In this document: positions 1 through 43,851 of the stretch, piece by piece
How the letters are laid out: every line of letters begins with the position of its first letter
Numbering within the stretch: position 1 is the first letter of the stretch
NCBI GenBank assembly: GCA_030737835.1
Contig: CM060857.1
Span: 12,411,496 to 12,475,495, forward strand
From: Acorus gramineus
Taxonomy: Eukaryota > Streptophyta > Magnoliopsida > Acorales > Acoraceae
Reading direction: 5' to 3'
Length of the DNA stretch: 64,000 bases
Made by a program: the position numbers and the translations under genes
The notes under the pieces: generated by a model
Seen by the model: the letters and a program-made list of their open reading frames with translations, nothing else
Databases searched by the model: none
Told to the model about the DNA's origin: nothing

Positions 1-119
1 CAATTCTTAAAAAATATATTGACAAATACAAAAAATTAATATAACATAAAAAATGAGTAATAATTGCATCACTATAATTTTTAATACATCCCAACTAGGT
101 TGGCACCTATTAAAACTAT

Positions 120-297
120 CCGTTGGTGGAGGTGGGGCCCGCGACACAAACCGTGCCGCGGGCCTAGCGGGCCGTGCCAGAAACGGCACGCGAGCCGAGG
201 GTCAGACCCAACCCGCGTCGCCACCCAAACGTGCCGGCCCACGGCACGGGCCCTTAACGGGCCGTGCCGGGCCGACCCGTCCCGTTTGATACCTCTA
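120..297. mobile_element. Terminal fragment of a hAT (Ac-like) DNA transposon
   Basis: A very GC-rich block sits in otherwise AT-rich DNA. It is made of repeated GGGCCGTGCCGG-type motifs in both orientations, and its right edge read on the minus strand begins TAGAGGTATCAAACGGG. GC-rich GGCACGG subterminal repeats followed by a terminus of this kind are typical of plant Ac-like hAT elements. I could not find the opposite end or a target-site duplication, so this is a truncated end or the element continues left of the window. The short reading frames across it are products of its GC bias. Confidence 0.55.
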
Positions 298-737
298 ATT
301 TTCGTGCACAACACAATCATCCATCAAGGTAGTGTGTTTATTTTGTTTTTCAATGTTAAGCTCTAGATATTTCAACAACTTTCATTTTAGATTTCAATTG
401 TATTCCTTATTTTTTTTAATGTATTTCTTGAATCTTTGTGTTTTTTTCTTAACAAACTTAACCATAGTTCTAGTTCTAGTTTTTTTTTTTTTTTTTTAGC
501 AAAATTAACTCTAGTTCTTTTTGTTTTTTTACTTTATTCTTACATACCCTAAGTTTTTATTGGAAACCCTAGTTTAGTCATAGTTGATGGAAAATGTTTG
601 GTAGAAAACGGTTTATATTGTGATTGATATGAATTATTTGATGAAAAATGTTTGTACATTGGTTCATATGCATATATTTGTATTTGATGCATTGAATAAA
701 TAAACCCTTATTCAGTAATCATTTTTTGTTATGGGGG
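298..737. other. Gene-free AT-rich stretch
   Basis: T-rich sequence with homopolymer T runs near 481-498. No exon, structural RNA or clear transposon end was recognised. It lies just before the first unit of the tandem duplication. Confidence 0.5.
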
Positions 738-849
738 AATCGTTGATAGCTCATTGTATCATTCGTCAATTGAGAATGTAAAATACATGTTTATTGAATC
801 ATTAGTATGTATTATACATATTTATTGGACATTTTGTATTCAATGACTT

Positions 850-1390
850 GGATTGGTTGATTGAGTGTGAAAAACACTCGTATGATGGACATTGTCGATT
901 GAGTGATAATCATTTGTTAGTAAAATATGAACTACATATTTTTATTGGGCATTCTTGATTCAATTACATTCATTTGTTGATGTCTTTTGGAAAACATATG
1001 ATCATTGATCTCTGTTGTTTGAACTAATGAGAATCATATGATGGTAATTGAATCACACATGGTTATTGAACATTCTTGTTTCAAAAACAATAATTGGTTA
1101 TTGTACTTTGGAAAACACATGCATTGAATTTTTTCTAATTCAATGAATAAGGATGATTGGTTGACTGAGTATGAATTACTTATTTTTATTGGTTTATATT
1201 GATTCAATCATTTGATTGATATCGTGTGGAATACACATGTTTTCCGAACAGTTTTTTTATTAAGATAGAAAAGTTGGTTGATTGAGTATGAAAAAGACTT
1301 TAATCGAACATTATCGATTGATTGATAGTCACTTGTTGGTAGAGGATTGTCTGAATCATTGGTTGATTCAAACTAGTTTGACCAATATAG
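850..1390. repeat. Degenerate short tandem repeats upstream of TFIIF-alpha
   Basis: Recurring motifs such as TTGGTTGATTGAGTATGAA, CATTGTCGATTGAGTGATA and GGAAAACACATG appear at irregular intervals of roughly 80-100 bases. The block is duplicated at about 3983-4530. It looks like an old, diverged minisatellite or the inside of an unrecognised element. No coding potential. Confidence 0.45.
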
Positions 1391-1776
1391 CACCAAAGTA
1401 ACGAGTTTCGCAAACTACCTTGCTTTGTAGACGTCAATCCAAATGGTTGTTTTGTTTAGAACAATGTGTCATTTTGTTACAACTAGAACAATGGTTAAGA
1501 GTGCGTTGTAACTAAATTCTGGTTATTTTGATCAGTTTTTTTACATGAGAATGATTTACAGTTGATTTTGAATAGAGAAATGATCTCTAGTTATGAAAAT
1601 AAATACAATAGATTTTGAACGGCGGAATGATCCGAAGGCGTTCTATGTTTTTGTCTCTTTTGACGTAGCGATTGCCAACCTACTCAATCTAGGTCGACCT
1701 AACAGTTGGTAGCTATTGCCTAGTTCAATAGTAATGTTGTCGAATGAGAAGCATAATGAGAGTAAAGATCTTTGGT

Positions 1777-2040
1777 TACCGTTCAACAATATCTCTATCA
1801 ACCACTTTAAAAAAGTGATGACATCCCGTTTTATCAAAAGGGAACAAAAATGGGATTATGATCTTCTGGTTCCAGTTCGACACAACCCTTGTCGACCACC
1901 GCACACACAGACGACATATAGTATGTCGAACTGGAATAAGAATGGGTCTATGGACTTTTGGTTCCCATTCGATAAAATTCATGTCGAACCACTTCAAAAA
2001 ACGACGACATCCAGTGTGTTGAACTGGAACCGGAATGAAC
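1777..2040. repeat. Three imperfect ~91-bp tandem repeats with an internal dyad
   Basis: Three units begin with GGTTACC/GGTTCCA/GGTTCCC at about 1777, 1868 and 1960 and contain a run like GACGACATCC. The middle unit holds a perfect 13-bp inverted repeat, TTCCAGTTCGACA at 1870-1882 and TGTCGAACTGGAA at 1924-1936. The block recurs in unit 2 (about 4914-5177). It lies 400-650 bases upstream of both TFIIF-alpha first exons. Subterminal transposon repeats are the likeliest origin; a regulatory role is not shown. Confidence 0.6.
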
Positions 2041-2440
2041 AGGGTGGGATAAAGATCTAGGTGGGATGTGTGGGGTTGGATAATGATATGGTTGGATTTG
2101 ACATGAAAAAAAATGAAGTGGAACAAATTTCTAAATTAAATAAAGCGGGGTGGGTGAAATAACTAGTGAGGTGGCTTTAACGGCCAACATGTATTCATGA
2201 AAAAAAACGCGCATGCACAATTTTATGAGTGCATTGGCTATGTGGCATGCTGTGATTGGTGCACACTGGAATTCCTTAAATAAAGATGCCTTTAGATAAA
2301 TAAAAAATTCATCAATCAATGACTGAACGTTCCAAAATCATTCGCGATTCAAAATTCCAGATCAAATTGGAACAATTCGAAAACCCTAACGCGTTCGATC
2401 TCCATCAATTCGACCGGTTCCTTCGTAGGTAGTGGAAGAG

Positions 2441-2688
2441 ATGAACCCGAGGATGATGATGCACCCTCCGCCGCTGGCGCCACAGCCCGCGCCGCCGCCA
2501 CCGATGCCGTCGGCGGCGTCTATGGATCTGGTTCTGAAGGGGTCGTGCGAGGGGTGCGGGTCGACGACGGACCTGTACGGGAGCAACTGCAAGCACATGA
2601 CGCTCTGCCTCTCATGCGGCAAAGCCATGGCCGCCGCCCGCTCCAAGTGCTACGCCTGCGGCTCCGTCATCTCCCGTCTCATCCGTGT

Positions 2689-2724
<36 letters not shown>

Positions 2725-3868
2725 ATGATCACCTTCTGTTGTGATGGAGCTTTTGTTCCTTTGATTTCGTCAGTTCGGTTGGGTTGTAGGGTTTGGATTG
2801 CGCTTTTGATGGATTTTATATTTGCGACCTCAAAAGATTGTGTTTTTTTTCTTTCATATTGGTGTTCATGGTGTGCTGTTTGATATGGGTTATGGGTTTC
2901 CCTCTATTGATTTTCTTTTCTTACTGTCCGCCATTCTGGTTATTCGCCCCATGGTGAAGCGTTTGTTCCTTTGATTTTGGGTGTTCTTTGGTTCGCTATA
3001 AGGTCTGGGTTTGAGGTTTGGTTTGCGATTTTGATGGAGTTTGTATTTTACACCCCCTAAAAGATTTTCTTTTTTTCATTGTGGTTTCCATTCTGATTTA
3101 CTGTTTGATATGGGTTTTGGGAAATTTCGTGTGGGGGTTGGGTTTCATGATTTGGCATTTCTTTTTTGCAATCCTCTTTTGATGGTTGTTTTCAGAAGTG
3201 GGCGTTGTTTGGGTGGATTTTTTTTTTTTTTGGAGGGGAAAGGATTTAGTAACTAGTCGAGTGGAACATGAGCAAAGCGAGATAATAATGTTAGCACTGT
3301 AGCGAGATACCGAGGGAGCAAAGAGAGCTAAATAAAGGTGAATGAAGTGAGGCAAATGAGTTTTTCTTTTCCATTTCCTACTGAAGAAAAAAGTGATAGG
3401 ATGACATGTCGTATTGGCACTGGTTTAAAAAGTGTTTGGTTAAAGAATTGGTCAACAATTTGGTATCATGTTTTTTTTTTAAAAAAAATTGCATCCTCGG
3501 AATGTTTGTATTTTTATTTTCTTCTTTGTGATGGGGTCTGAATTCAATTTTTTGATTGTTGAATGTGAAATATGTATATTTTTTTATGATGGACTGGGTT
3601 GAATTTCCATTTTTCCTATAGTTTGGGTTGCATTTGGGGCTTTGATTAAATGGCTCACATTTACATGACATTTGGTGTTCATTTGGCCATTGTCTTATGT
3701 GCCGCACAGGAGTATAATGTTCGGGCAAGCTCTAGTTCAGATAAGATGTATTCTATCGGGAGATTTGCCACAGGTTTGCCGAGCTTCTCTAAGAAAAAAC
3801 ATGCTGAGAACAAATGGTCCCTCCACAAAGAAGGCCTGCAGAGGCGTCAGTTAACCGACAGCTTGAGG
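2441..3868 (+). CDS. Duplicate upstream exons 1-2 of TFIIF-alpha (alternative 5' end)
   Basis: Exon 1a (2441-2686) and exon 2a (3710-3868) repeat exons 1 and 2 of the main gene. Exon 1a gives the same 82 residues, including the N-terminal Cys cluster. Exon 2a gives the same 53 residues except one Arg for Gly near its end (GLQRRQ instead of GLQGRQ). The start is the first ATG after an in-frame upstream GTG. The splice sites are kept: donor GTCAGT after exon 1a, acceptor GCACAG before exon 2a, donor GTATCA after exon 2a. There is no copy of exons 3-9, so on its own this is a truncated gene. Because exon 2 is 159 bases, a transcript from this promoter could splice 2a to exon 3 or to exon 2b and stay in frame. 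Whether it is an alternative promoter or a dead duplicate cannot be told from sequence. Confidence 0.75.
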
Positions 3869-3870
3869 GT

Positions 3871-6800
3871 ATCATTGATAGCTCATTGTATCATTCGTCA
3901 ATTGAGAATGTAAAATACATGTTTATTGAATCATTGGTATGTATTATACATATTTATTGGACATTTTGTATTCAATGACTTGGATTGGTTGATTGAGTGT
4001 GAAAAACACTCGTATGATGGACATTGTCGATTGAGTGATAATCATTTGTTAGTAAAATATGAACTACATATTTTTATTGGATATTCTTGATTCAATTACA
4101 TTCATTTGTTGATGTCTTTTGGAAAACATATGATCATTGATCTCTGTTGTTTGAACTAATGAGAATCATATGATGGTAATTGAATCACACATGGTTATTG
4201 AACATTCTTGTTTCAAAAACAATCATTGGTTGTTGTATTTTGGAAAACACATATGCATTGAATTTTTTCTAATTCAATGAATAAGGATCATTGGTTGAAT
4301 TACTTAGTATGAATTACTTATTTTTATTGGTTTATATTGATTCAATCATTTGATTGATATCGTGTGGAATACACATGTTTTCCGAACAGTTTTTTGTTAA
4401 GATAGAAAAGTTGGTTGATTGAGTATGAAAAAGACTTTAATCGAACATTATCGATTGATTGATAATCATTTGTTGGTAGAGGATTGTCTGAATCATTGGT
4501 TGATTCAAACTAGTTTGACCAATATAGCACCAAAGTAACGAGTTTCGCAAACTACCTTGCTTTGTAGACGTCAATCCAAATGGTTGTTTTGTTTAGATCA
4601 ATGTGTCATTTTGTTACAACCAGAACAATGGTTAAGAGTGCGTTGTAACTAAATTCTGGTTATTTTGATCAGTTTTTTTACATGAGAATGATTTACAGTT
4701 GATTTTGAATAGAGAAATGATCTCTAGTTACGAAAATAAATACAATAGATTTTGAACGGCGGAATGATCCGAAGGCGTTCTATGTTTTTGTCTCTTTTGA
4801 CGTAGCGATTGCCGACCTACTCAATCTAGGTCGACCTAACAGTTGGTAGCTATTGCCTAGTTCAATAGTAATGTTGTCGAATGAGAAGCATAATGAGAGT
4901 AAAGATCTTTGGTTACCGTTCAACAATATCTCTATCAACCACTTTAAAAAAGTGATGACATCCCGTTTTATCAAAAGGGAACAAAAATGGGATTATGATC
5001 TTCTGGTTCCAGTTCGACACAACCCTTGTCGACCACTGCACACACAGACGACATATAGTATGTCGAACTGGAATCAGAATGGGTCTATGGACTTTTGGTT
5101 CCCATTCAATAAAATTCATGTTGAACCACTTCAAAAAACGATGACATCCAGTGTGTTGAACTGGAACCGGAATGAACAGGGTGGGATAAAGATCTAGGTG
5201 GGATGTGTGCGGTTGGATAATGATCTGGTTGGATTTGACATGAAACAAAATGAAGTGGAACAAATTTGTAAATTAAATAAAGCGGGGTGGGTGAAATAAC
5301 TAGTGAGGTGACTTTAACGGCCAACATGTATTCATGAAAAAAAACGCACATGCACAATTTTATGAGTGCATTGCTTATGTGGCGTGCTGTGATCGGTGCA
5401 CACTGTAATTCCTTAAATAAAGATGCCTTTAAATAAATAAAAAATTCATCACTCAATGAAATTTCAGATCAAATTGGAGCAATTCAAAATCCCTAACGCC
5501 ATCGATCTCCATCAATTCGACCGGTTCCTTCGTAGGTAGTGGAAGAGATGAACCCGAGGATGATGATGCACCCTCCGCCGCTGGCGCCACAGCCCGCGCC
5601 GCCGCCACCGATGCCGTCGGCGGCGTCTATGGATCTGGTTCTGAAGGGGTCGTGCGAGGGGTGCGGGTCGACGACGGACCTGTACGGGAGCAACTGCAAG
5701 CACATGACGCTCTGCCTCTCATGCGGCAAAGCCATGGCCGCCGCCCGCTCCAAGTGCTACGCCTGCGGCTCCGTCATCTCCCGTCTCATCCGTGTCAGTC
5801 TCTCTCTCTCGATCTCTCGATATGATCACCTTCTGTTGTGATGGAGCTTTTGTTCCTTTGATTTCGTCAGTTCGGTTGGGTTGTAGGGTTTGGATTGCGC
5901 TTTTGATGGATTTTATATTTGCGACCTCAAAAGATTGTGTTTTTTTTCTTTCATATTGGTGTTCATGGTGTGCTGTTTGATATGGGTTATGGGTTTCCCT
6001 CTATTGATTTTCTTTTCTTGTTCGCCCCATGGTGAAGCGTTTGTTCCTTTGATTTTGGGTGTTCTTTGGTTCGCTATAAGGTCTGGGTTTGAGGTTTGGT
6101 TTGCGATTTTGATGGAGTTTGTATTTTACACCCCAAAAAGATTTTCTTTTTTTCATTGTGGTTTCCATTCTGATTTGCTGTTTGACATGGGTTTTGGGAA
6201 ATTTGGTGTGGGGATTGGGTTTCATGATTTGGCATTTCTTTTTTGCAATCCTCTTTTGATGGTTGTTTTCAGAAGTGGGCGTTGTTTGGGTGGATTTTTT
6301 TTTTTTGGAGGGGAAAGGATTTGGTAACTAGTCGAGTGGAACATGAGCAAAGCGAGATAATAATGTTAGCACTGTAGCGAGATACCGAGGGAGCAAAGAG
6401 AGCTAAATAAAGGTGAATGAAGTGAGGCAAATGAGTTTTTCTTTTCCATTTCCTACTGAAGAAAAAAGTGATAGGATGACATGTCGTATTGGCACTGGTT
6501 TAAAAAGTGTTTGGTTAAAGAATTGGTCAACAATTTGGTATCATGTTTTTTTTTTAAAAAAAATTGCATCCTCGGAATGTTTGTATTTTTATTTTCTTCT
6601 TTGTGATGGGGTCTGAATTCAATTTTTTGATTGTTGAATGTGAAATATGTATATTTTTTTATGATGGACTGGGTTGAATTTCCATTTTTCCTATAGTTTG
6701 GGTTGCATTTGGGGCTTTGATTAAATGGCTCACATTTACATGACATTTGGTGTTCATTTGGCCATTGTCTTATGTGCCGCACAGGAGTATAATGTTCGGG

Positions 6801-6945
6801 CAAGCTCTAGTTCAGATAAGATGTATTCTATCGGGAGATTTGCCACAGGTTTGCCGAGCTTCTCTAAGAAAAAACATGCTGAGAACAAATGGTCCCTCCA
6901 CAAAGAAGGCCTGCAGGGGCGTCAGTTAACCGACAGCTTGAGGGT
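3871..6945 (+). repeat. Tandem segmental duplication, unit 2
   Basis: The second, downstream copy of the unit at 738-3870. Similarity to unit 1 stops right after the exon 2 splice donor: both copies read TTGAGG then GTA, after which unit 2 continues into the real intron 2 and unit 1 runs into the start of unit 2. This copy is contiguous with exons 3-9 and is therefore taken as the 5' end of the main gene model. Confidence 0.93.
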
Positions 6946-9900
6946 ACTTGCTTGATTCTGACAGATTATGCAGTACTGTTCATTTTTGTAACATCAATAA
7001 TGCTTGATAAAGGTTATAAATCTGCATAATGCACAGTTTCTGCATAACTTGCTGTTGGAAGCTCTAGGTTTATTGTTCTTATGTTCTATTGATTGACATC
7101 AAATGTTGTGATCTGAAATGAATTCACTTGAATGATCTTATGCCTCTAAGGGCAAAAAGGCCTCTTTCGATGTGCCAAAAATTTGTATCAATGATGAATC
7201 GTCGACCTATGGTTCCAATATTGTTGCAATATGCAAACTTAGACAACTTATCTGTTTATTTTATTTTATTTTATATGTCTGGCTGATTGCTTTAAATTTT
7301 TGTAGTGATGCATTCATTTTCTTTGGCTCATAGGAGAAGCTGAGGAACAAACCTTGGATTTTGGAGGATGAGACCGGTCAACATCAATTCCAAGGTCAGG
7401 TTGAGGGTGCTCATTCAACTGCATATTATCTTTTAATGATGCATGGGCATGGGAAGGAGTTTGTAGCTGTGCCAGCAGGCTCCTGGTATGAATGACTTAT
7501 GTTATCTTTTATTTGCCTATACAACCATTTTGCTATTTTTCCCTCTAGGGAAGTCTTGTTCTAGGAACATACTTCTTTATATTTCTAGTTAGTGAAAGTT
7601 TGTAGACTATATTTTACATTGTATAAACGGCTAATGATGGTCAACCAGTGATAATCTTGTGCAGAATGTAATTCATGCTTCAGTTCTATTATGATGTCAT
7701 GATTGAGGAGTGATGCTTGTTCTTTTCATAGGTACAACTTTAATAAAATAGCTCAATATAAGCAACTTACATTAGAAGAAGCCGAAGACAAGATGAAAAA
7801 CAGGAAGAGGACAGCAGATGGGTATGAAAGATGGATGATGAAGGCGGCAGCCAATGGAGCTGCGGCTTTTGGTGCTGTGGAGAAAGAAATTGTAAAGAGT
7901 GAAGTGCCTGATGGAAATCGGCGCAAGAAAGGAAAAGGTGACAGTGGTGAGGATGCTGCTGAGAAGGCTGAAGAAGATGAAGGAGAAGAGGAGATGAAGA
8001 AAAATAAACCAGGCTTGAACAAAAAGAGCGTTGATGAGGATGAAAATCCTGCTGAAGATTTTGACTTGGATGATGATGACATTGAAAAGGGTGAGTGCAG
8101 AGTGCTTTATATTTCTTTGCTGTTGACTGGGTTCATGAACTACTCTTTTTTTTTTATGTTTGTGCACATTTTTCTGTTTGATTGCATGAGAGTTGCTGTC
8201 ATTTTTGGAGTTTCATCTGTTAACCATTTCAGTTAGTGTGCTCCCACCTTTAGTTTTAAAAAACCGTAATTTTAAATTTCTTTACGTAGAGTGGTGCATT
8301 AGACTCAGTCAAATAAGCATGCTTTTTTTAATTTTGCACAGTACCTGGCCTATGGAATTTGTTTGTTCACCTGGACATGTTCTATTTTCCTGACACCCTG
8401 TATCACCCACTCTGCTAATTGCCTAATTGTTGTATTCTTCAACATTTAAGTTAACACTAGTATACTGTACGCACAAATGCGTGTAAATAAAAAATTATAT
8501 TTCACATTTGTAAAAACATGAATGGATGACCATAAATTCTACTTGTTAACATGAGAAAATAAGTTCAAGATTGATAGTATTCTACCTTCAAAAAAGGTTG
8601 AATAATGAGTCATGTTTAAAAACTTCCTTTTTTAATTCTAATGAGCTCCACCACATATAAAACACAATAGTACAAACACAGAGAATACTACATAACATTA
8701 TTAGAATTTATAAACTTTCGCAGTGCGTACATTCTGATGCTCATTTGCCTTCCAATATTTAAAAACCTACAAATAATAGGAGAAAATACGTATTCGATTC
8801 TATTTTGTTTCTCTCATCTTGTCCACCACTCATTTTTCTTTCATCTCATTCAACACATTCATTAACACGCTCTAATTCTCTGTTTTTTTCTTACTTGTCA
8901 GCCATTTTCTTTAACCATTTTTTGATATCATTCAATCACAAGAATGAAAAATCAACATGACCTGCCGCAAGAAAAACACCAGAAAAGCTCTCCCGTTCAT
9001 GGTATGCAAAAGTAAATACATAGAAACTAAGGAAACAATCAAACATTATAATATAATAGTGGCCAAGAATATACAACCACTTGGGAGGTCATATCATGGT
9101 GAATTAATTAAGTGCACAATTTTCTAACATCAATGTAACTGAAAGCCAATCACAACAACACTCTTTCCATAAAATAATAATAATGATAATAATAACCAAA
9201 TAATATAAAAATAAAATAAATATGAATCCCATGGCTACTTTTTTTTTTCTATTTCTATAACAAATTGAGATTAGCATCCAAAAGCCTGTTTTGTACAACA
9301 AAAGGAGTTCAGGTGCAGATATAAAAATACATATAATATTATTAATGTACAATGTAACAATCATATAAAGAAAAAAGAATGCATAAATATACATTGAATG
9401 GAAAAGAAAAGAAAGTTTATACTTGGTACAGAGAGAGCACACTGAAATGACACGTTACCCACGCAACCTGCAATGCACCTTCAAATTAATTGTTTACCCC
9501 GACTAAATAACAAAATTACACACAAACTGGGATGGCGAAATTTTGTCGTGATCGTACCACTTTATAGTATAGTATAGATAAATCTGCATAGCGTGGTTTT
9601 TTAGGTGTCTTAAATTGTACTATTGGCTTTTGTTTTTTCTACTTCATGCTGAAGAGATTTCAGCATGTTAAATCAGTAGATCAATATCAATGGAATTCGC
9701 ATGCATGACTTGAAGATGATACCTTTAAAAGTATCATCATTTTTGGCATTATGTTAACTAGGTTCCTTTCAATCATAGATGGCTGTTATTTATAGGTTCA
9801 TTTTTATGATCTTTTGAATATATGGGTTCTGAAGGACATGAAGAAAATTAAACAGATCTGATTCCCCCGTTTTAAGTGAGTTTGGGAGTTCTGAACTTCT

Positions 9901-12900
9901 GACTGCCTGGTGCCATAGTAATATACATGTTCTTTGATTCTCCTAATTTTCTTCTCAATTTGATTTTTTCTTTGCTTTTTTACATATGTTTCTAGGTGAT
10001 GATTGGGAGCATGAAGAAACCTTCACTGATGATGATGAAGCTGTGGGCAACGATCCGTTGGAACGCCTCGATTTGGAGCGTGAGCCCACTCCACCTAGAA
10101 TCAAGGTTTGAGTTGAAAATTGAAGAACTTGTGTGCAAGTTTATTGTGAACATTTAGTTTTGCATGAGTAAAACAATGATTACTCTCTAAATACATGGCA
10201 GATGACGATTATGATTTTGATGCATGCTCATGAATATATAAATCTACATGACTTGGTTTTAGTATTGCCCTTGTCAATGTTCTGACTTGCAAAATATTTG
10301 CATTCTTATTACATCAGTGAATTTGGTCTTCTGAAGGTATTGTTGTCTCAGTTAATAAGAGTAGATGTGTATGTTCATGATGTGTTTTGGAAATGGAAGC
10401 TCATAACAACATTTAATGTTCCAGGATGATGAAGAAGATGAAGAGCATGAGGAGGAGGGTGGAGCGAAATTGACCGCTGCAGGGAAGGAATTGAAGAAGT
10501 TGCTTGGACGAGCAAATGGACTAAATGAATCAGATGCTGAGGAGGAGGAGGAAGAAGAAGATGTAAGTTCTTCTTTTACTTATTGAAATCTTTCGTTTTT
10601 TGACATCCTTGAGCTATGAGGAACTTTGTGATGGAAATTATAAATTATTGCCAGTCTAGCCTGCCCTCAGAGTGTGATGTTAACTGGTAACTTTGTTGGA
10701 TAAAGTTCTATGTTATGCGGAAGAAAAAGTTATTAGACATGAATTTTATTTTATAATTTTTTTGAATTTGAGAAGATATGGCATAATTAAGTAGATGAAT
10801 AAAAAAAATGCCTGCAAAACGCCCACAGAAAGCAAGGCTGTCCAATTTTACCTCTCTATCTTTGACATCTCGGTCTCATTCATATTCCTCAAGCAGCCTC
10901 TCAGAATATCCCTTTGTATCCATCTTCAGGAATTAAGCTTAAACTTACATCACATAGTTGAATGTTGTTTTGATGTTTTTCCTTTTGCCCCATCCGAATT
11001 GCAGTATAAATTCTGTATTTTCTTCCCGGAGGTGGTTTTAGTCGTGTTGGGTCAGCATTAGGCTAGTCAACCTTTATAATGGTTATGGTCTGGCACGTGC
11101 CTTTCCACTCTGCCAGTTAGTCGGTGTTGCTCTCTAAGGTACCTGCTGGCAGGAAGTGCAAACTTGTTAACGTGTCTCCAATGCAGTGAGCCCCTTCTTT
11201 TATAGGGTAAAAACAAAAGATCTTACGTCAAGCTGGAGGTAGAGAGGGAGATTTATTGGTGTTCTGAGTTTGAGGATAATGTTCTATGAAGTCAAAATTT
11301 CTATCAAGGCCAGCATTGGCCAGAAAGTGTCTCGATCTAGATCATTAGTTGAAAAAAAGGATTTTTGTTTTTTTTTTTGGGGGGGGGGTGTTGTGCAGCT
11401 TTAGAACATCCCCTCCTAATTCTAACCCAACTTTCTGAGCTTCCTAACATCATATATGTGTCAATTGCCTCTTTTGGCATATACTCAATATTAAACCCTG
11501 GATGACCACCAATAAGTTCTCACCTCCTTAAAACACTAATTTTTCTCAATTCTTCCCTAGGTACCCCCTACTATCCTATATATTAAACAATCAATCCACC
11601 GAACTCCCTTCTCCTAATCTCATCGCAAACCACCAGCTTGTGATGACTACTTAGCAAGTTCCAACCCTTGATATGTTTGGATCTGGGGAATTGAGTGAAA
11701 TTTGTAATTAATTCTTTCAGCCTAACATATATGAGGTGGGTGACAATCACGACCATCAGATCATGGGTTATAACGCTCCTAGTGGTGGAATCACCGTTTG
11801 CAATCAATCATGGGTAACACATAGCTTGGGGTGTGAACCTTTTGGGTGAGGCTGCACAAGGGTGTTCATGATCCAAATTTCTTCTTTCTTATTACTCTAT
11901 TTTCTTGGATTCCCACCTAAATGGATTGCAATTCTAATTCTAAAAAAATCATCAGAGTTGTAATTCTGATCATTTCCAATTCCACTTAAATTGCAGAGGA
12001 ATTGGAATGATAATATTCCAGTTCCAACCAATTTCCTAAATCCAAGACTCTTTGAATGTCACAATTCCATCACCATCAGAATGCATCTAATCCTCCCCTT
12101 CCACTCTCCTTCCAATCCTAAGATCTCTTTCCAGACATTATACTTCCACCTTAATTGGTTCTGTTCCCTCGTAATCGTCTGCCAACTTTGCCGTCCTATC
12201 ATAGCTAGAATTTTCCACCATGAATTTATGTTTTCTATGCCATATCCAACACAGCTGTAAAACCTAGCTTCCCTTTTTCATCCTACTTATATTGAATCTG
12301 GGTTTTGACAACTGGTATCATAGTGATATAGGTTTGTATCATATGCAAAATTTCCTTTGAACTTAGCACATTGCAGGCATGCAGCACATTGCACATTTTT
12401 GAAATATGACCACTTAAGAGTAGGTTTAAAATCTGATTTTTTGCCTTGTCATACTTTCACCCAGCATTGAGCTTTTGGATTTGATCGAGACAAAATGTCA
12501 GGTCAACCATTTGCTGTATATTTCTCTGTTGATGTTGAAATCTAGGGGATGTTTACTTGTTTCTTGTATACACCAGCCACTTCAGATGTTTCCGTCACAT
12601 TTCTTTCATGTGCTGGGATGGCAAACTACTCCCCTTCTATCTATGATATTCATCATGAACATCACAGGTGAACTCTGATTTTTTTTACCTTTGCAGGTGG
12701 AGGATGAGGCTGGCAATTCTCCTGTTCTTGCTCCAAAGCAAAAGGATGCTCCAAAAGAAGAGCCTTCTGATAACAGTCCTTCAAAAGCAGCACCCAGTGG
12801 ATCTTCTCGTGGAACTCCATCCACATCCAAGTCAGGAAAGTCAAAAAGAAAACATGGTTCTGATGATGCAAAGTCTGCGAATGGTGGTTCTGTGAAGAAG

Positions 12901-13724
12901 GCTAAGACAGACAATGTATGCCATTCCTATATTGCACAAATGAAATTTAGATATAAATTTTAGAACCATTCTGTACCTTGTCTTCTTTGGTTGACTATTA
13001 TGCTATATTATTCTTAAACAGGATTCAAAACCATCATCTGTTAAAGATGAGCCTGTTAGCAGTGCTCGAAATAGTGCATCTTCTAATGGATCAACTCAAG
13101 CATCATCGAAAACTAAATCAACATCCACTGTTGGTCCTGATATAGAAGAGGAGATAAGGACTGTTCTGCTCCAGATGGCTCCAGTGACAACCCAAGATCT
13201 TGTTGCAAGATTTAGGTCGAGACTAAGAACCAAGGAGGTATATCTTGATTACCTAGATCCATATCCACCAACATTGCTACATTTTTCATTAATGGCCTGC
13301 ACATGGTTATAGTTTTTCTGATAATGAAATGTCCTGGATTTTTTTGGATAGCGTGTGTAGACAATTAGATGCAGATTATATCAAAATTTACATGGTTTGC
13401 ATAATCTTAATGTCTTTTTATTGACATGTTTATTTAATCATTCTATGTGCGTCCCTGCTGGATCATATGTTTTATTACTCAAGGAAGTTGACATATAAGT
13501 TTAATTCATATATCTTTCTGCTTTCATGAGGCATGCCCTTCCCTTGTTTACTGTTTGAACTAGTTAATCTATGTATGTAATGGATTCTGCATGTCCCTAG
13601 TTTTGAATTTACTTACCTTTTTTTTTTTTTGCAGGATAAGGCGGCTTTTACAGAGATTCTGAGGAAAATGTCCAGAATCCAGAAGATCGATGGAGCAAGC
13701 TACGTTGTGCTGAGAGAGAAATGA
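5548..13724 (+). CDS. Transcription initiation factor IIF subunit alpha (RAP74), nine exons
   Basis: Large subunit of TFIIF, which binds RNA polymerase II, helps load it at promoters and stimulates elongation in the nucleus. Exons: 5548-5793, 6785-6943, 7334-7485, 7732-8090, 9996-10105, 10425-10562, 12697-12915, 13022-13237, 13635-13724. All junctions keep frame with GT-AG sites, giving 562 residues, close to other plant homologues. Residues 36-73 form the plant-type Cys cluster (C36-x2-C39, C50, H52, C56-x2-C59, C70-x2-C73). Next come the TFIIF-fold region (EYNVRA to about 210), a long acidic and Lys-rich linker, a Ser-rich low-complexity stretch, and a C-terminal winged helix (about 502-562, EEEIRTVLLQMAP to YVVLREK) that in known homologues contacts the CTD phosphatase. 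A probable 3'UTR intron runs 13737-13984. Introns 4 and 6 carry insertions. The 5' end is duplicated upstream. Confidence 0.95.
8457..9578 (-). mobile_element. Non-autonomous Helitron in TFIIF-alpha intron 4
   Basis: Read on the minus strand, the element starts TCTATACTATACTATAAAG directly after a host A and ends CTAG directly before a host T, as expected for Helitrons, which insert between A and T without a target duplication. A perfect 5-bp-stem hairpin (ACGCATTTGTGCGT on minus, 8469-8482) sits 8 bases before the terminal CTAG. The body is about 1.1 kb, AT-rich, with no Rep/helicase coding sequence, so it depends on an autonomous partner. It lies inside an intron of about 1.9 kb in a housekeeping gene and leaves the splice sites untouched. 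Confidence 0.82.
10563..12696. other. Long intron 6 of TFIIF-alpha, unclassified insertions
   Basis: A 2.1-kb intron between donor GTAAGT and acceptor TTGCAG. It contains stretches unlike the other introns: C/T-rich sequence at about 10800-11170, a T-then-G run at 11370-11388, and a segment at 11880-12130 with repeated GGAATTGGAAT and CAATTCC motifs in both orientations. These suggest one or two degraded DNA elements, but I found no matching ends. Confidence 0.4.
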
Positions 13725-19759: not shown

Positions 19760-20640
19760 CTCACTGCCTCTTTGGAGAGATGGGTTGGGAGTCTCGGGGA
19801 CGCCGCAATAGGCCGACATGGGCACCCAATCCCCGCCAAGGGTTTTCTGTGAAACGCAACTACATCTGGTGGGGGCGCGCCACCCATCGGTCTCGCTGAT
19901 GTGTGGAAGTCCCAGCCGCATATGGAATCCCAAGATTCTGAGAAAGATCAAAGTTTTTGCGTGGCTGCTGGTACGGGACCGCCTCCTCACAAAGGTGTAT
20001 CGGGCGAAATGGCGCATGGAAGAGGATACGTGGTGTGGTCTGTGCGGGGAGGCACCGGAAACCATCGCGCACCTATTCTGTCAGTGCCGCTTCGCACAAG
20101 AGCTTTGGCGGGTTATGGGGTCCTTGGTCGCGCTGACTCCTTTCGATTCTCCGTTAGGCATGTGGGAGGCTGACACCGAGCTCCGCCATAGGTTCGCGTC
20201 GGGTCCCCAGAAACTCATCTCGCACTCAATCATTCTGGCTTGCGCGTGGGTGATTTGGCGCACTAGAAACAAGACGGTGTTCAGAGGAGCAAGAACATAC
20301 ACTGAGAACATGCGGTACGCCGCGCTAGCATTCATCAGATCATGAGCGCGTGAGCTGGCTGGCGTGCGAGGAGCGCTGCTGCGCGATAGGGCGATCGAGG
20401 TGCTCACCTAGACTTGGTCGGAGCTGGTCCGGGCGCGCTTCTTGGCGATGGATAAACGGCGTTTCTATTCTCGTCTAGCGCGACTGTTTTACTTTTTCTT
20501 ATTGTATTACGTTTACTGCATGCGTTGCATTCTGTTTCCTCTCACCCTCAATTTAGACCTGTAACAAATCTATTTCATAATGAAAGTGATCGGTAGCCAG
20601 TGTCTATCTTTTTCAAAAAAAAAAAAAAAAAAAAACATAT
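19760..20640 (+). mobile_element. 5'-truncated LINE (L1-type) 3' end with zinc-binding region and poly(A)
   Basis: The frame at 19818-20345 encodes a stretch typical of the reverse-transcriptase zinc-binding region near the C terminus of plant L1-type LINEs: RKIKVFAWLLVRDRLLTK, then CGLCGEAPETIAHLFCQC, FAQELWRVM, and a distal WVIWRTRN. A 3'UTR and a run of about 22 A residues (20615-20636) follow. The segment is GC-rich against its surroundings. The RT and endonuclease parts are missing, as expected for a 5'-truncated insertion. I could not define the target duplication. Confidence 0.85.
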
Positions 20641-20949
20641 TTAATTCATTTCAAGAAACCTATTTTTTTTAAACCAATAAAAAAAGAAACAATTAATTAC
20701 ATTAATAAAAACAGAACTCAAATTCAAATCACTTAGGATTTCTTAAAAAGAAACTAAAAAAAGAAATCATTAAAAAAAACCCATTTAATCCAAAACACAA
20801 AAAAAGACTAAATTTTTGTTTGCGGCCTCTCATTCAACTTTTTTTTTTAAAACACTGTTGTTAATTTATAATTTTTCAATTCCAATAATCAAACAAAGTA
20901 TATGTGATTGATGCAATTTTTTTTCAATATATGCATAAATGAAACACTA

Positions 20950-22600
20950 TAAAATTAGATGTGAAATGAAACACGATTTTTCTTCTTCCAAGCCAAATAG
21001 GCTTCATGATCTGGTCGATGCTGTGCGGAGGTCCCATGCTCATGTTCAATCATGGTTTGTGTTACAGTTTCAAGCAAATCCAGTTCCTCTAGGAGATACT
21101 GAATCTTACGATGCCAAACATCATAATTCTTCTCATTCAGTTTGTCTCCCTGATTGAGGTCAGCGATAATGCTTTTGGTAGCACTCATAGTCAACTATAG
21201 GAGACAATTAAGCTAACATTGATTACTAGCACAACCAAATAATAATAGTAATTTGCAGCAATCTTTCAAACTAAAAAAAATAATAATAGAACATATGCCA
21301 CATAATCCAAAGATATATAAAACATTCAATCATCTTCCGTGAACAAAGTTAAACTATTATTGATTAAGTTAATTATGCGCAAAAAAACTAGGGAACTAGG
21401 CGAGAATTTTTAGTTCTGCCAGCCTCAATCATTAAGTTAATATGTTACTGTATGTGCCGAATGATATCATTTTAACATGAAATATGTGATAGCATACAAT
21501 GATCTCAGAAATAAACTCTAATCGGATTACTGTGTCAACATGCAACATATTCATCAATAAGTTATATATATATAACTTATCCGATTACAATATCAATGGT
21601 GTTATAACATACATAATTCATCCAATCAAACAGAGATATAAATCTAGCATAATTTTTCTCTTACCATAAAAATAGGGATCAAGATGAATTATCGTAAATG
21701 TTCCACTTATATATCAAAATAAACAGAACATGCTGTTACATAAAAAAAAAATTTAACTTATATCTGATGACATAGACATGAATTTAAAATAACACATCTA
21801 GGAATCAGGGTCAATAATTCTAACTGATTCTCATGACATGTAAAAAAAAAAAAAAAGGATCTAATAATCAAACAGATCATCCCGAGCATTTTTTTTTTAA
21901 AGGTTCTTCTTGGTAATGCCCCTTTTTTATAATTACTGTTATTATTATTCGAGTGTGATCCATATTCTTGTTAATGTGAAATATGGAGTAAACTCACCTT
22001 AATTAAGGGATTTGAAATTTTTTTTTTTTTTTTTTAAAATCACATCACATATCTATCTCATCTAACAAAAAAAAATGATCACATTCAAATTTCGCATGTT
22101 TGTTTAGAATGTGACATGTGGAGAACATCTCACCTTTATAGGGATTCCGTTTTTAACAACTATCACACGTCTGACACATCCAAACATGATTAAAGGAACC
22201 ATCCGAGATCATAAATACATATGTTTAAGAACATCTGGAAAAAAATTTATGAATATGAATTCATTTCAAATTGAAATTAATCCCTAAAGCATGTATTCTA
22301 ACTTTTATGCTCTGATACCAATGTCGGAACTCAAGGATCATGCAATCCAATTTGCGGAATAAATACATACATATCTTTATTTTAAAAAAATAATTCTTCT
22401 CACTTTATTTCTTCTTTATATAAAAAAACCTCTTGACTTTCTGTTTGCTGTAGACTAAAATAAATTATGTGGTGTAGACAACAAGGAATAAAGTTTTTTT
22501 TTTATTTGAATCAAATAAAAACTTACATATAAAAACTTTATTAATATTTTTGTAGTCCAAAAAATTAGAAGAATGATTTTTAATTAAAAAATTTAATAAT
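20950..22600 (-). mobile_element. Copia-type LTR retrotransposon relic (part of LTR, primer site, gag start)
   Basis: On the minus strand, TGGTATCAGAGC at 22320-22309 is the standard primer-binding site for initiator methionine tRNA, directly inside an LTR edge ending CCGACA (about 22322). A TATATAAAG word and AT-rich sequence further out fit an LTR whose outer edge I cannot place. About 1.1 kb inwards, 21194-20955 encodes the start of a Copia gag (KLNEKNYDVWHRKIQYLLEE, then AYLAWKKKNR). The pol region and second LTR are absent, so this is an old broken fossil. Confidence 0.7.
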
Positions 22601-23649: not shown

Positions 23650-24360
23650 CTAGTTTATGTTCTGATTATCCTGTATTTGTACAGAACTACTCTGAAGGAA
23701 AGAATTAATGTTTAGCAATGATAACCCATTGAGAATTTTCTGGAGCAGTCCATGGACATGTGAGCAAACACTATAACTATTCATTTAATACATTAGTTAT
23801 AAAATAGTCCTCTTAAGTTCATCTTGCTTGAATGTGTAAAGAATCTGGCTTTTCTTGTTACTTACAGTAAATTCATATAGTTTTAAGAGAGTCCATTTCA
23901 ATAGAAATGCAAATCTTTACATGGAGCCCACACAGTGAACATTTGTTGCTATCTTTTGATAGAAGAGAGCCCATTTGATTCAAGAATAGACTTGGAATAA
24001 GTGAGAATTAGTCAAAATAGCTTCAAAATAAATGTTTGAAAGGCTGAAATAAATGAGAATATATGTGTCAGAATTAACTGGTATAATTTAGAATATAGAT
24101 TCCAATTAACCCTTAAAATTAAGTTATTATATGTTCTCCAATCCAAAAGAATACGTGAACCTACTGTCAAATCAAATGTTTTTATTTTTTATAAATTATT
24201 ATCTACATTTTATTCACATTTTATTTAAATAAAAAATTTGTTATTAAGTTTCAATAAAAATAATTTAAAATATATTTAAATAAAAAAATATTTTATCATT
24301 ATTTATATTAAAATAGTAAATCTCATGATAATTTAATTATCTGTCCAAACGGTGCTGGCA
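23650..24360. other. Gene-free AT-rich DNA
   Basis: No exons or element ends recognised. The block at 24180-24330 is extremely AT-rich with runs of TTTAAATAAA, and could be a scaffold-attachment-like region or just drifted sequence. Confidence 0.4.
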
Positions 24361-24399
24361 AAAACATCCATTCCAGTCATCCAGTCGTTCTCTCCAAAA

Positions 24400-24555
24400 A
24401 AAGAATCCGATCCGTCCAAAAATCCCCTCTTTTGTGTCTCTGTCAATCCCGCTTAGGGTTTCTCTCGCAAGGGCCGCCCAAAGGAGCTCCAGGAACCCCA
24501 ACTCGGCGAGGAGGAGGAGAGGCTTTCCGCGGAGCGATTTCCAGAAGTGCGTGGT
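24400..24555 (+). other. Exon-like 5'UTR island with splice donor, gene unknown
   Basis: A GC-rich island containing TTAGGGTTTCTCTCGC, a common motif of plant 5' leaders, followed by GCGTGGTGAGTTC, a good splice donor at 24554-24555. It could be a non-coding first exon of a gene further right on +; the Rpp21-like gene at 29285 is the only candidate, 4.7 kb away. No matching island is seen in the other arm. Function unproven. Confidence 0.35.
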
Positions 24556-25287
24556 GAGTTCTAAAGCTTCTCTGACGTCGATTCATTGTATCGAACAATT
24601 GATTTCGCGATGTTTGTGGTAGTTTTTCAGTTCTTATTGGTGCATATGGTGACAGAAAACGAACGGGTTGGGTTTAGAAGTTCTCAATCATGCAGACTGC
24701 GTTTTTTTTTTTCTCTCTGTGTTCTGTTTTGATTGTATTTGTATTTTTTTAATGTCATTTTTTTTCTGTTCTGTATGTTTTGTTTTGGTTGTCATTTGTT
24801 ATTGTGATGCCTACTATATATGGGACTGTGTGCACCTCAGAAGATATATGTATATATATGTGTGTGTATATATATAGAGAGAGAGAGATGGGTGGGGGAA
24901 GGGCTAGATGAGAAGTAGGTTTGTTTTGGGTCAGGTGAAATTGAGCGTTTTCAAATTAAATTATGAAAATTTTGGCCCCCAAATACAAACTTGGTACTAA
25001 ATAAATGGCATTGTGTCACCACTTACCAGCTTGGAGGGAGGAATATATACCTCTATTCCATTATGATTGCAGGGAAGAATTAGGATACGATTGCAAGAAT
25101 TGTATTATATCTGTTTGTTATAAAATTGTCTTATATTAGTTGGACTTGTTTGGAATATGTGCGGGAGTGGTGAAAGATAAGTGCTTGCAGGTATGTTTGA
25201 TGTTTTTCAAGTATGTTAATTACGCTGAATGTTAGTGCTCTAGGACATTAGTTGAAGGGCTTCAGTCCCTTTTTTTTGGTCCCACTT

Positions 25288-25523
25288 TCAGGGGCTGTTT
25301 GGAAGCATCGTTTGAACATGTTTTTGCTTTTGAAGAAATTAAAAAGTGCAAACATGTTCTCAAACGGCTCCAAAAAAACATGCTTAATTAAAAAATTTGT
25401 TTGTGCTTTAAGTAGAAAAAAATTGATTTTTTAAATGGTAAAGAAAATGAGCTTCTTAGAAATCAGTTTTACTAAGTTACTTTATACAAAATCATATTTC
25501 AATTAGGTTTTCAAACAAATCTC
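25288..25523. mobile_element. Possible small MITE
   Basis: Ends GGGGCTGTTTGGAAGC (left) and GAGATTTGTTTGAAAACC (right, on minus) with an AT-rich non-coding interior. Flanking triplets are TCA and TAA, so the duplication is imperfect. Similar in design to the MITEs at 19139, 47550 and 58968. Confidence 0.38.
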
Positions 25524-25946
25524 TAATCATATCCCTTTATTTGAGGGTATATATGAAATTCATACGTGAGGTTCTTTATTAGCATATGCATTTCAAATAA
25601 AAGAAAAGATCTGAAGATTAAAATTAAGGCTGAAAAATGAGTTGATATATCTTTAATCATAGTTGAAAACTTGTCAAACTCGACAGTCATTATATTTGCC
25701 AAGACTGTATATAAACAGAAATATCATTTAAAAAAAACAAGATCATTTCAGAAACATGTTGTATAACTGCAGTTCAGTAAGAGAAAATACTAGCTAGAAT
25801 ACATAAAAAAGTTATTGTGGAAATGTCTACAGCACATCTCTTTTACAAGATTCACAGTTTCTTCAACTACACTTAACCAAATAAAAAACAAAAGTTCAAA
25901 ATTACAGACAGAGACAACCATAAAAAAGCAGAAGTATATTGTTTAA

Positions 25947-26584
25947 GAGCATCTCCAATCCCATACCCAAACATTTACTTAAACTTAAATTTGAGTAAAA
26001 ATCTCCCAAAACCCTCTCCAACCATTTACTCATACCAAATCAAGCTTTTACTCAAATCTTTACCCAAATCAAGGGAGACTCAAAGTTTTACCCAAATTTT
26101 TAACATCTCTTTTTTTTCCTTTATCTCCACATTTTTTTCTAATGTAACATTTTTTTTTCCCTTCAACTCCACCTTTAATTTAATTATATTACATGTTTTC
26201 CCACCCCTCAAAATTTTCACCATCTCTTGAAATCCAAAAAAAAAAAAAAAAGTAGTCTTCTTTCTTAAGTCTTCATTTTTGTTTTTTATCTTCTTATTTT
26301 TACTCCAATAAAAAAATATTACTTTTACCTTTTTTAAAAAAAATTGGATGATAATAATTTTTAAATTTAAATATTTTGAAGGAAAGAAAAATTGAGTAGT
26401 AAAAATATTTGGGGAAAAGACTTTGAAAATGTTTATATGAAATAATTAAAAAAAGATGTGGGATTTTTAAAAGATTTGAGTAAAACACAAAGTGATGGTT
26501 GGAGACACATCATATCAAATGAAACTTTTACTCAAATTTTAATTGAAATTTAAGTATAGGTTTGAGTAAAGGCTGGAGATGGCC
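25947..26584. mobile_element. Harbinger-like MITE with GAGCATCTCCA ends, TAA target duplication
   Basis: Left end GAGCATCTCCAATCCC after TAA; right end on minus GGCCATCTCCAGCC before TAA. Related TTTGAGTAAA and TTTACTCAAA words lie near both ends. GAGCATCTCCA ends with three-base TWA duplications are typical of plant PIF/Harbinger-type MITEs. About 640 bp, no coding sequence. Confidence 0.62.
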
Positions 26585-27727
26585 TAAGGGCATCTAATTA
26601 ATATATGGGTTAAGTAGTTTCATTAATTGTAAATCTTCTTTGTTGATCATTGATGATAGATGAAAGCCTGAAACTATTGGATGGCTATTTTATAAAAGTG
26701 GCAACCTCAAAACTCAAAAGTGGATAAACGAAGGGATACAATTCAATGAGAATTCTATTTCACACAGTGCCCTCTCTTTCACTCTGTGTATATATGTATA
26801 GGTTAGGTTAGATTAGATTCTACTTTTACAGGGCCACATAGTGATATAATTGGATTCCAAAAACACAGAAAAAGGAAGAAACTTTGAATCTATCGATGCA
26901 TGGAAAAAAAGGAAGTTTATAGCACCTATTAAAAAAATTGTTTGGAATTGTTGAATATAGATGCGTGAATTTATTGATGGGGAGATGAGGCAGTGGATCC
27001 ATGATTGATATTTTGCTCGGGAAAAAATAAGCTACATGTCTAATGAGAAATTTGGAGGATGTGGAGGTTCTCTTGTATAGAATGGAGATGTGCAAGTTTT
27101 TGTTGTACAGTCAATGCCCAAAATTCTGTGATACCTGTCCAGAAAATGGGGATGGGCCAAAATTTTCCTTTGGTTAATGAATGCATTTTGAGAGTGGAGT
27201 GGGAGAAGAAAATGAACCCCTTTAGTTTTATTTGAAACTTAATTATAGTGTAAACCAATCCATTTTTTTGTGGGTGGCATTGAAGGAGAATCTGAATTTA
27301 ATTTGATGTCAGAATCCATCCAGCTGATCTATTTTATAGTGGAACATAGCACATCCTGAACTAAATTGTACTTGTCTTCAAAAGCTGGATTTAGAATTGT
27401 ACTTGTCTTCAAAAGCTGGATTTAGAAGTGTAAGATAACTGAAATGTGTGTCCTGAGTTGAGTATGTCTTTTGCTGAAAGTGAACAAAATAATCACAAGT
27501 TCATGGTTATTGTTAGAATAAAGGAAACCTTATAGATACACAAATAAAACCTTAAAATACCATAACAGGAAATTATGAAAACTAGGAAAGTAATAATGAC
27601 TCAATATTGTCATAATAATGACTTTTAAAACCCCTCCCAAACTCTAAAGGGCAAATCCTCCAGAGTTTTGTGTGTTCCGTATCTCTCTCCCTCTCCTTCT
27701 CTCTCTTGTTTCAGTTTGTTTATGATC

Positions 27728-28773
27728 AGTGTTCTGATATGTGCTATGTGCGGCCGCATAGGCCAGAAAGCAGGGATATGCGGGCAACACCGGCATAGGC
27801 ACCACATATGCGTTTATGCGCCTTCTTTTTCAGTGAATTAAAATGGGCCTGCCCGACCTGTGTAACACTTAAAAATAAAAATAAAAATGGGGTCTTCTTC
27901 TCTGTCTCGACCAGCTGCCCTAACATTTGTCCTTCTCCTTCCCTTCAACAAATTAACCTCCGACCGCAGAGATCTACTCCCCCCCTTCGACGGTTCGACC
28001 TGCTCGACCACCGACCTCCACAGCTCCACTGCAGTAATCTGCTCCTTCTTCGACCATCAACCTCCACGGTTCCACCGCAGCGACCCCGAATAAGTCGGTC
28101 TCTCCTTCTCCATCTCTCCACCATCTGCCGCGTTCCGACTCCTGGTGAGTATTGTCCATTTTTATGTGATACCTAGATGGTCAGATCCAGTATTCTCAGT
28201 GGTCCTTTATGGGTTTTTGATTTGTGTGGATGTTTTATGGTTCGTGTTTGATTCATGGATTGTTGAGGGGCTCCTGTTTTACACAGGAACTGCATTTGAT
28301 TCTCTTCTCTCTGTATCTATTCAGTTTGTTGGGCTGCATTGATTCAATAATTTCAATCATTGTTATTTTCATTGGCATTTGATGATATAAATGACAAAGA
28401 ATATATTTATCTCTCTCTCTCAGTCGAAGTCCCTCCTTCGTTGTATATTTATATGAAATATATGTATGATTGTCTGATTTGTATATGGTTTTGGTATATA
28501 AGTTACATTGAATGGCATCATTCTTTAGAAGATCAAGTTAAAAAGCTATAAGCTTTCAACAGAGATGCTTGGAATCTTGGATTATGGTTGATATAGATAT
28601 ACCACATCTCATTTTGTTTATTACTAAACATAATTCAAACACTTGATCAAATCATTCATTTTTTAACATTTATTAATAAAAAATTACAGACAGTATATAC
28701 TCCCCCGCATACCGCATGTACTCTGTGCAGTACCCCAACTGCACGTAAACCGTATATCGCATATCAGAACACT
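27728..28773. mobile_element. Non-autonomous hAT-like element inserted in arm A
   Basis: Terminal inverted repeats AGTGTTCTGATATGTG (left) and AGTGTTCTGATATGCG (right, on minus), then subterminal repeats of GCATAT and GCGG words, as in hAT elements. Flanking GTTTATGA/ACTTATGA are an imperfect 8-bp target duplication. The other arm of the inverted duplication has the uninterrupted site, so this inserted after the duplication. The interior at 27890-28145 resembles a C/T-rich plant 5' leader ending in the donor CTCCTG/GTGAGT, perhaps the leader of a lost transposase gene or a captured exon. Confidence 0.72.
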
Positions 28774-29284
28774 ACTTATGATATTTGATCGATGGATTCG
28801 ATTTGTTTTTGATGTGTTTTTGGTTTATTTTGGGGTTAGATTCTGATGATATGTTAGATTTATTTTTTGATGTCTGTGGGTTTTGAATGTCCCCCCAGCG
28901 AGTGACTGAAGTTGTTTATTTTGGGCTGATATGATCAGTTTTGTTTGTCAGTATTATTGTTTGATCAAAACAGATGGACTGTGTTGTGTTTCATGTTAAT
29001 TTTGTGTTTGTCATTAGGTTTTTGGGACAATATGCACTTTTTTTTGGGTCGGTGGAATTGGAATCGTTCAATTCTTTTTTATGCTTGTCAGGTTGAACCC
29101 GGATTTTTCATTGAACACCCAAAATCGGGGTTTTTAAGATTTCCCCAAATTTGCCTCCAGACGGTTCCTTAAAAGAAAATCCTTGAGGGTGGTTTTGATT
29201 TTTACCTTTGATTCTACGAGTTTTGCGACGTGTGACATACGAACGACGGTGAAGGTTCTAACGGAGAGTTCATTTTTCTGACCC

Positions 29285-30148
29285 ATGGCCAAGAAAGAAG
29301 GCCATGGGAAGTTTCTAATGAGCAATGGTAGTAACAGAAATCAGAATCTGACACTCCGAGAGGAAAACACCGGAAAGAAACGGGTGAGCATCAGCACGAT
29401 CTTGAAGGTACAACACCTACAGAGGTTGGCCACGTGGGCCGGAGGCGAAGCCTCTGTGGCTCCGCTAGGTGCCCTTCTCGGCCACCACCTGGCATCAATT
29501 GCCGAGGCCGAGGGGGTTCCTCTTGACCAGTCCCTCTTCCCTTGCCAGAGGTATCACTGCATGAATGTATTCCTTGTCTAAGCATTGCATTTTTTCGAAC
29601 AGTTTCCTGATTGGGCGTCGTGCAGGTGTGAGACAATCCTTCAACCAGGTTATAACTGCACCGTGCGTATCGAAAGAGGCGCACACAAGGCGAGGCGGCA
29701 CAAAGGTTCTACAGTCCCAATGCAGAACAGTGTGGTTTATACATGCAAATTCTGTTCTCACAGGAACCTGAAAAGAGGCGGCACAAAAGGGTATGTAAAG
29801 GAGATATCAACTGCAAAGAAGAAGCTGGAAAAAGGCCCTCCAAGTGGATCAGAAAATTCCGAGAAGATGAAAGGAACAGGTCCTGATGTTATCTCATCTA
29901 AACCAGGAATTCAGTGCAGTCCAGCAACGCCGTTCAAGAAAATGTGTATCAGCTCTTCTTCAGAGAACAAGAAGCCTTGTAACAAGGTGGCTGTGAATAG
30001 TGGTGGTTGTGCGGATTCAGCACCGACCAATGGGCGCTCGAAGAAACGCAGGCGAAAATCGTGGAGTAGCCTGAAGGAGATTGTTGAGAGTAAGGAGCGG
30101 GAGGCATCAGGGAAATCAGGTGGGTTGGCAGTCCCATTTGCCTTGTGA
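29285..30148 (+). CDS. RNase P/MRP Rpr2-Rpp21-Snm1 domain protein, copy A
   Basis: Exons 29285-29550 and 29626-30148 with a 75-base intron (donor GTATCA, acceptor CGTGCAG); 262 residues. The domain begins in a helical region (STILKVQHLQRLATWA, residues 37-52). Its zinc site is C87-x2-C90 (CQRC, created across the splice junction) and C129-x2-C132 (CKFC), with LQPGYNCTVRIERG and SHRNLKRG between and after, as in Rpp21/Rpr2/Snm1 proteins. In yeast and animals these are zinc subunits of RNase P or MRP that process tRNA and rRNA precursors. The tail is Ser/Lys-rich with a basic SKKRRRKSW stretch that looks like a nuclear signal. Its partner is the near-identical gene at 32911-33774, tail to tail. 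Frame and splice sites are whole. Role in a given complex is inferred. Confidence 0.9.
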
Positions 30149-30260
30149 TGATATGGCATTCATTTTTTTTCTTTTTTTCTTTTTTATGATAATGATGATA
30201 TCATTATTTTTGTTACCTTGGCAATCTGTCTTTTCAAACAGAATTGAAGCAAAAATCATA

Positions 30261-31575: not shown

Positions 31576-31654
31576 AACATGTTTTGAATTTTTTAGACAT
31601 ATATTTGTCTAATGAACTTTATACATTAACAAAAATGAAATATATATCCAATGA

Positions 31655-43806: not shown

Positions 43807-43851
43807 TCTTCCATACAAGTACATATATCAACAAATTAAATCACATCTACC

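Follow-up and report, generated by a model that had tools for sequence, protein, structure and literature searches.

Probable tandem duplication at a TFIIF-alpha locus

The stretch of the Acorus gramineus genome analysed here (the window, 64,000 nucleotides, C11:12411496-12475495) carries a TFIIF-alpha (RAP74) gene whose putative promoter region and first two coding exons stand in two near-identical tandem units, followed by a single set of downstream exons. It is likely that this arrangement is a real and derived partial tandem duplication. The fuller reading, in which the duplication is real and fairly recent and both unit promoters are able to start transcription (a role presumed for them here), was assigned a probability of about 0.48.

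Self-BLAST of window positions 1-12000 against the window aligned 732-3871 with 3864-6946 at 96.2% identity over 3146 columns, with 50 mismatches and 20 gap openings. Each unit holds exons 1 and 2 of the gene with intron 1 between them and upstream sequence in front. The unit limits and the join listed below were set from this comparison and from a three-way alignment of unit 1, unit 2 and a related locus on contig C6 (3057 ungapped sites, divided into six regions).

741..3871, plus strand: unit 1 (upstream sequence, exon 1a, intron 1, exon 2a and the GTA of the next intron), left edge accurate to a few bases
3872..6946, plus strand: unit 2, running on into the single-copy rest of the gene
3869..3876, plus strand: duplication join, where the GTA of the donor gives way to left-flank sequence behind exon 2a; one shared base (A) and an imperfect GGGTA/GGGAA overlap
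515..2185, plus strand: repeat element upstream of the gene, whose main pieces resemble stretches on C8, C3 and C4 at 74-86%

Unit 1 runs past exon 2 through the donor GTA and then into sequence from about position 741, where unit 2 and C6 read TCATTGATAGC. The three-way alignment places this join at about 3871/3872, where the parental sequences share one base (A), or GGG-A with one mismatch. The first-pass annotation had proposed two tandem, near-identical units of about 3.1 kb holding the upstream region and exons 1 and 2, which the self-BLAST bears out; its starting point at 738 agrees with the alignment to within a few bases, and its claim that the upstream copy keeps the GT of the exon 2 donor with new sequence behind it also holds, GTA being retained. 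The near-absence of homology at the join argues for end joining or a template switch, as opposed to an exchange between long repeats. Retroposition was ruled out because the unit contains intron 1 together with upstream DNA. The position of the right break at a splice donor seems to be due to chance.

The left breakpoint lies inside the repeat element at 515-2185, and approximately 1.4 kb of each unit's promoter region consists of this element, which is present elsewhere in the genome. At C3, a 37-base stretch resembling 2149-2185 is found again in inverted orientation (86.5%), a pattern expected of DNA transposon ends; the element is probably such a transposon with inverted ends. It is also present at C6 and therefore predates the split between the C11 and C6 loci.

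An artificial origin was also considered, in which the assembler set two haplotypes of a single-unit locus head to tail. The 1.7% divergence between the units in their upstream part falls within the allelic range of an outcrossing plant. In three earlier vertebrate assemblies, 4 to 16% consisted of such false duplications (PMC9516828). However, the gap between copies that is the usual, although not the sole, sign of such an error is absent, and the window contains no N bases. A join with about one shared base would also not be expected from overlap-based assembly on its own. Furthermore, when C11 (114 kb), C6 (120 kb) and C4 (30 kb) were each compared with themselves, three repeat pairs reached 500 bases and 85% identity, all on C11; the TFIIF-alpha units form the sole direct pair and the other two are inverted, so that no further direct repeat of this kind occurs in the 264 kb compared. 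An assembly error is thus considered unlikely.

Gene identity and reading frames

The first 388 residues of the predicted protein match the TFIIF_alpha family (PF05793, E 8.9e-79, 265.9 bits against a cut-off of 27.1) with residues 73-387 aligned, a stretch that takes in exon 2 (residues 83-135). The second family listed for these residues, zf-C3HC4_3, scored below its own cut-off. A 361-residue part matches TFIIF-alpha chains in PDB, with five distinct sequences at E <=0.001 (E 3.7e-8 to 9e-7). A profile built from the C11, C6 and C4 proteins recovered two of these sequences at E <=0.01; its alignments start at residues 129 and 139 and are therefore little informative on exon 2. The coding exons are as follows.

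2441..2686, plus strand: coding exon 1a, 246 bases, 82 codons, identical to exon 1b
3710..3868, plus strand: coding exon 2a, 159 bases, 53 codons, with one difference from exon 2b (A at 3842, giving the derived change Gly127Arg)
5548..5793, plus strand: coding exon 1b, from the translated joins
6785..6943, plus strand: coding exon 2b, 159 bases, with the donor GTACTTGCT common to C6 and C4
7334..13724, plus strand: exons 3-9, single copy at the locus (7334-7485, 7732-8090, 9996-10105, 10425-10562, 12697-12915, 13022-13237, 13635-13724)

All nine exons have GT/AG borders, which are intact in either unit. Joined to exons 3-9, the combinations 1b-2b, 1a-2a and 1a-2b each encode 562 residues and 1a-2a-2b encodes 615, and each of the four translated joins contains a single, terminal stop. 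The assignment to TFIIF-alpha made in the first-pass annotation is upheld by the PF05793 match, and translation confirmed the exon boundaries that it gave, the 159-base length of exon 2 and the in-frame joins 1a-2a-3, 1a-2b-3 and 1a-2a-2b-3. The nine exons at C11 thus encode one intact protein of this family, whose front is duplicated only at C11 and single at C6 and C4.

Exons 1a and 1b do not differ at any of their 246 bases, and between 2a and 2b there is a single difference (3842/6917). Glycine at position 127 is kept in C6 and C4, which makes Arg127 in exon 2a the derived state; rice and Arabidopsis have the glycine too. Since exon 2a has Arg127, a 1a-2a-3 product would not be identical to the standard protein.

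A literature search found no paper linking plant TFIIF alpha to gene duplication. A transfer-messenger RNA match reported by ARAGORN at 2256-2974 was taken as spurious, being that of a bacterial model on plant-like DNA. Within intron 4 of the C11 gene, the stretch 8422-9088 is absent at the C6 locus, and parts of it match C1, C58 and other places; it is most likely an insertion in C11.

Sister loci and the derived state of the tandem arrangement

Searching the genome (398,581,865 bases, 137 contigs) with the protein gave 20 exon matches at three loci, namely C11, where exons 1 and 2 are found twice, C6 and C4. The C6 locus has one unit, and there the left flank of unit 1 is continuous with the right flank of unit 2. 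In the C4 copy, the exons are 73-90% identical and exons 1 and 2 are present once. The presence of a single unit at both C6 and C4 indicates that the tandem state at C11 is derived. The C6 copy comprises nine exons with 562 codons and a stop, and differs from the 1b-2b form of C11 in 13 codons, 5 of them silently and 8 not. Judged by its sequence, the C4 copy is an older TFIIF-alpha paralogue.

Collinearity between C11 and C6 was assessed with 114 kb against 120 kb, using pieces of at least 300 bases. Of the 12 rows obtained, two were set aside as repeats (25944-26587, 86.6%, on the other strand, and 69574-69935, 77.5%); in the remaining 10 pieces, C6:4703993-4743752 follows the window from about -1138 to 23968 with interruptions, at 91-98% identity. 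The block shared by C6 and C11 probably goes back to a recent segmental duplication. Matches to window 24000-34000 were dominated by repeats and uninformative. When the region of a cytochrome P450 gene further along the window (43850-46300) was searched, the 40 candidates scored out of 881 included no high-identity match on C6, the one C6 row being 78% identical over about 155 bases. The likeness of C6 and C11 is therefore that of a local block and not of two alleles of a whole contig. The possibility that C6 is the other allele of the C11 locus was ruled out by this P450 gene, which lacks a near-identical C6 match among the candidates scored, together with the end of collinearity at about -1138 and 23968 within the 114 kb and 120 kb compared. 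In a separate difference between the two contigs, C6 holds approximately 21 kb where C11 has 1.8 kb (19760-21565).

The exon 1 donor reads GTCAGT in both C11 units, GTAAGT at C6 (C6:4740668 downwards) and GTCGGT at C4. A weakened exon 1 donor as a defect of C11 was ruled out, as C4 also has C at +3. Since C4 agrees with C11 at this position, C6 is likely the changed copy, and it may have gained a better exon 1 donor.

Divergence between the units and order of events

Across the 3057 sites, 15 differ in unit 1 alone, 32 in unit 2 alone, 78 in C6 alone and 2 in all three (unit 2 against unit 1, P 0.019). Over the 1435 sites of the upstream part, divergence is 1.74% between the units and 4.3-4.4% between either unit and C6. 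The units are closer to each other than to C6, so they were duplicated after the C11/C6 split. They also share 49 states against C6 within these upstream sites and are therefore each other's closest relatives. If rates were even and conversion rare, the units would have parted at about 40% of the age of the C11/C6 split.

The excess in unit 2 includes the segment directly in front of exon 1, described by the following features.

2182..2440, plus strand: putative proximal promoter and 5' leader of unit 1, nearer the C6 state
5319..5547, plus strand: putative proximal promoter and 5' leader of unit 2, with 12 substitutions of its own in 229 sites and a 30-base deletion

The corresponding number for unit 1 alone is 2 substitutions (nominal P 0.013). 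A search with 5290-5547 for a third locus that could have donated the altered leader of unit 2 matched only the sequence itself, unit 1 and C6, and a third locus as its source was dropped, as no further match was found. At face value, the better-kept parts would be the promoter of the upstream unit and the exon 2 of the downstream one, a first step of work sharing between the units; the pattern could equally be due to chance.

Gene conversion between the units was considered for their longest substitution-free stretch, which covers 594 bases (3248-3842; P 0.001 under an even spread of differences). It was dropped, since 3248-3842 is also less diverged from C6 and a rough correction, with about 3 expected and none seen, leaves the case weak.

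Splice signals, possible products and use of the two starts

The exon 2 donor is GTACTTGCT in unit 2, C6 and C4 and GTATCATTG in unit 1. Estimated pairing with the 5' end of U1 is -5.1 kcal/mol for donor 2a and -5.0 kcal/mol for donor 2b, a crude estimate and not a splice predictor. From exon 2a, the intron would be 2916 bases long to exon 2b and 3465 bases to exon 3.

In the proposed mechanism, a 3.1-kb tandem duplication would have copied the gene front, comprising part of the repeat element, the proximal promoter, exon 1, intron 1 and exon 2, probably through repair of a break or through template switching during replication, with little homology involved. Both unit promoters could then start transcription. 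Transcripts from unit 2 would give the standard protein, while those from unit 1 would be spliced across unit 2. The acceptor of exon 2b precedes that of exon 3, and 1a-2a-2b-3, with exon 2 doubled in frame, would therefore be the simplest unit 1 product. Other unit 1 products, 1a-2b-3 or 1a-2a-3, would yield a protein of standard length, the latter with Arg127.

Both starts are plausible because the frames and GT/AG borders are intact, the pairing of the 2a donor is comparable, the unit 1 promoter is nearer the C6 state, and a precedent exists in the PEP1 gene, described below. The chance that both are in use is put at about even. Several observations weigh against this. The 5' part of intron 1 also shows an excess in unit 2 (7 against 1 in unit 1, P 0.07), so the excess need not concern the promoter; the upstream repeat, the largest region, has changed equally in unit 1 (11) and unit 2 (12); and the promoter value of 0.013, drawn from a set of six regions, loses significance once corrected for that number. 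In the 2a donor, the T found at +6 in the old donor is missing. The exon 2a change affects a Gly that C6 and C4 retain, which fits relaxed constraint, and the two other TFIIF-alpha loci could make changes at C11 neutral. The two start regions, or the poised alternative isoform, put forward in the first-pass annotation are candidates here, so that its interpretation is supported in part.

Several of these points bear on a second possibility, that the duplication is real but inert, with unit 1 silent or its transcripts degraded and the gene running from unit 2 alone. The derived Gly127Arg in exon 2a is in line with it, as is the large share of repeat element in the upstream sequence. Read-through past the 2a donor would run into a stop 14 codons further on, which would truncate any product left unspliced there. 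On the other hand, exon 1a is identical to exon 1b, frames and GT/AG borders are intact, and the proximal promoter is more altered in unit 2 than in unit 1; at 1.7% divergence, little decay would be expected in either case. We consider an inert unit 1 possible, at somewhat below even odds. Transcription able to start from both units remains our preferred reading, and we hold it doubtful that the gene is already a mosaic. In such a gene, the unit 1 promoter would be the main one, the unit 2 promoter would drift inside an intron and exon 2b would be kept, or the factor would carry a doubled exon 2; this appears quite unlikely.

Genes with tandemly duplicated exons that are spliced alternatively or in a mutually exclusive way likewise have two consecutive in-frame exon copies. 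Unlike in such genes, a promoter and exon 1 sit between the TFIIF-alpha exon 2 copies. A closer counterpart is PEP1 of Arabis alpina (PMC3527215), where exon 1 has been partially duplicated in tandem along with parts of the promoter and of intron 1, with exons 1a and 1b spliced to one exon 2 and two starts seen by 5' rapid amplification of cDNA ends. Both loci have tandem copies of a promoter part and first exon before one common set of downstream exons. In PEP1, the exon 1 copies are 6.3 kb apart and the upstream sequence is highly diverged, whereas the TFIIF-alpha units are only 1.7% apart upstream. The TFIIF-alpha duplication also includes exon 2, breaks 3 bases inside its intron and could double this exon. 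The use of both starts was seen experimentally in PEP1 and is a prediction at the present locus. The anatomy of the duplication is of the known PEP1 kind, with the inclusion of exon 2 and its donor as the difference.

If the preferred reading is true, the locus would be a young example of how a second front end can provide a housekeeping gene with two starts or lengthen its protein, and the unduplicated C6 sister in the same genome would make the states before and after directly comparable. If unit 1 is silent, the locus would be an ordinary structural variant.

Other features in the window

Of four pieces scanned against Pfam, one, a short frame of secreted appearance near 18.5 kb, had no family match. 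At 19812-20640, a reverse-transcriptase-type zinc-binding frame (PF13966, E 4.2e-17) is followed by a run of A and looks like the remnant of a long interspersed nuclear element. The stretch that holds it (19760-21565) has no C6 piece of at least 300 bases.

An inverted pair, 29074-30224 and 32833-33971, is 89.6% identical. A frame in this pair matches Rpr2 (RNase P Rpp21 subunit, PF04032) with E 6.8e-07 and 29.9 bits against a cut-off of 29.3.

The cytochrome P450 gene extends over 43852-47324 on the minus strand, its neighbouring frames having been assigned by eye. A 202-residue piece of the frame 45399-46085 matches PF00067 (E 3.7e-23), and among the 40 candidates scored out of 881 in the search with 43850-46300, the best matches elsewhere by E-value are on C7, with 80% and 69% identity.
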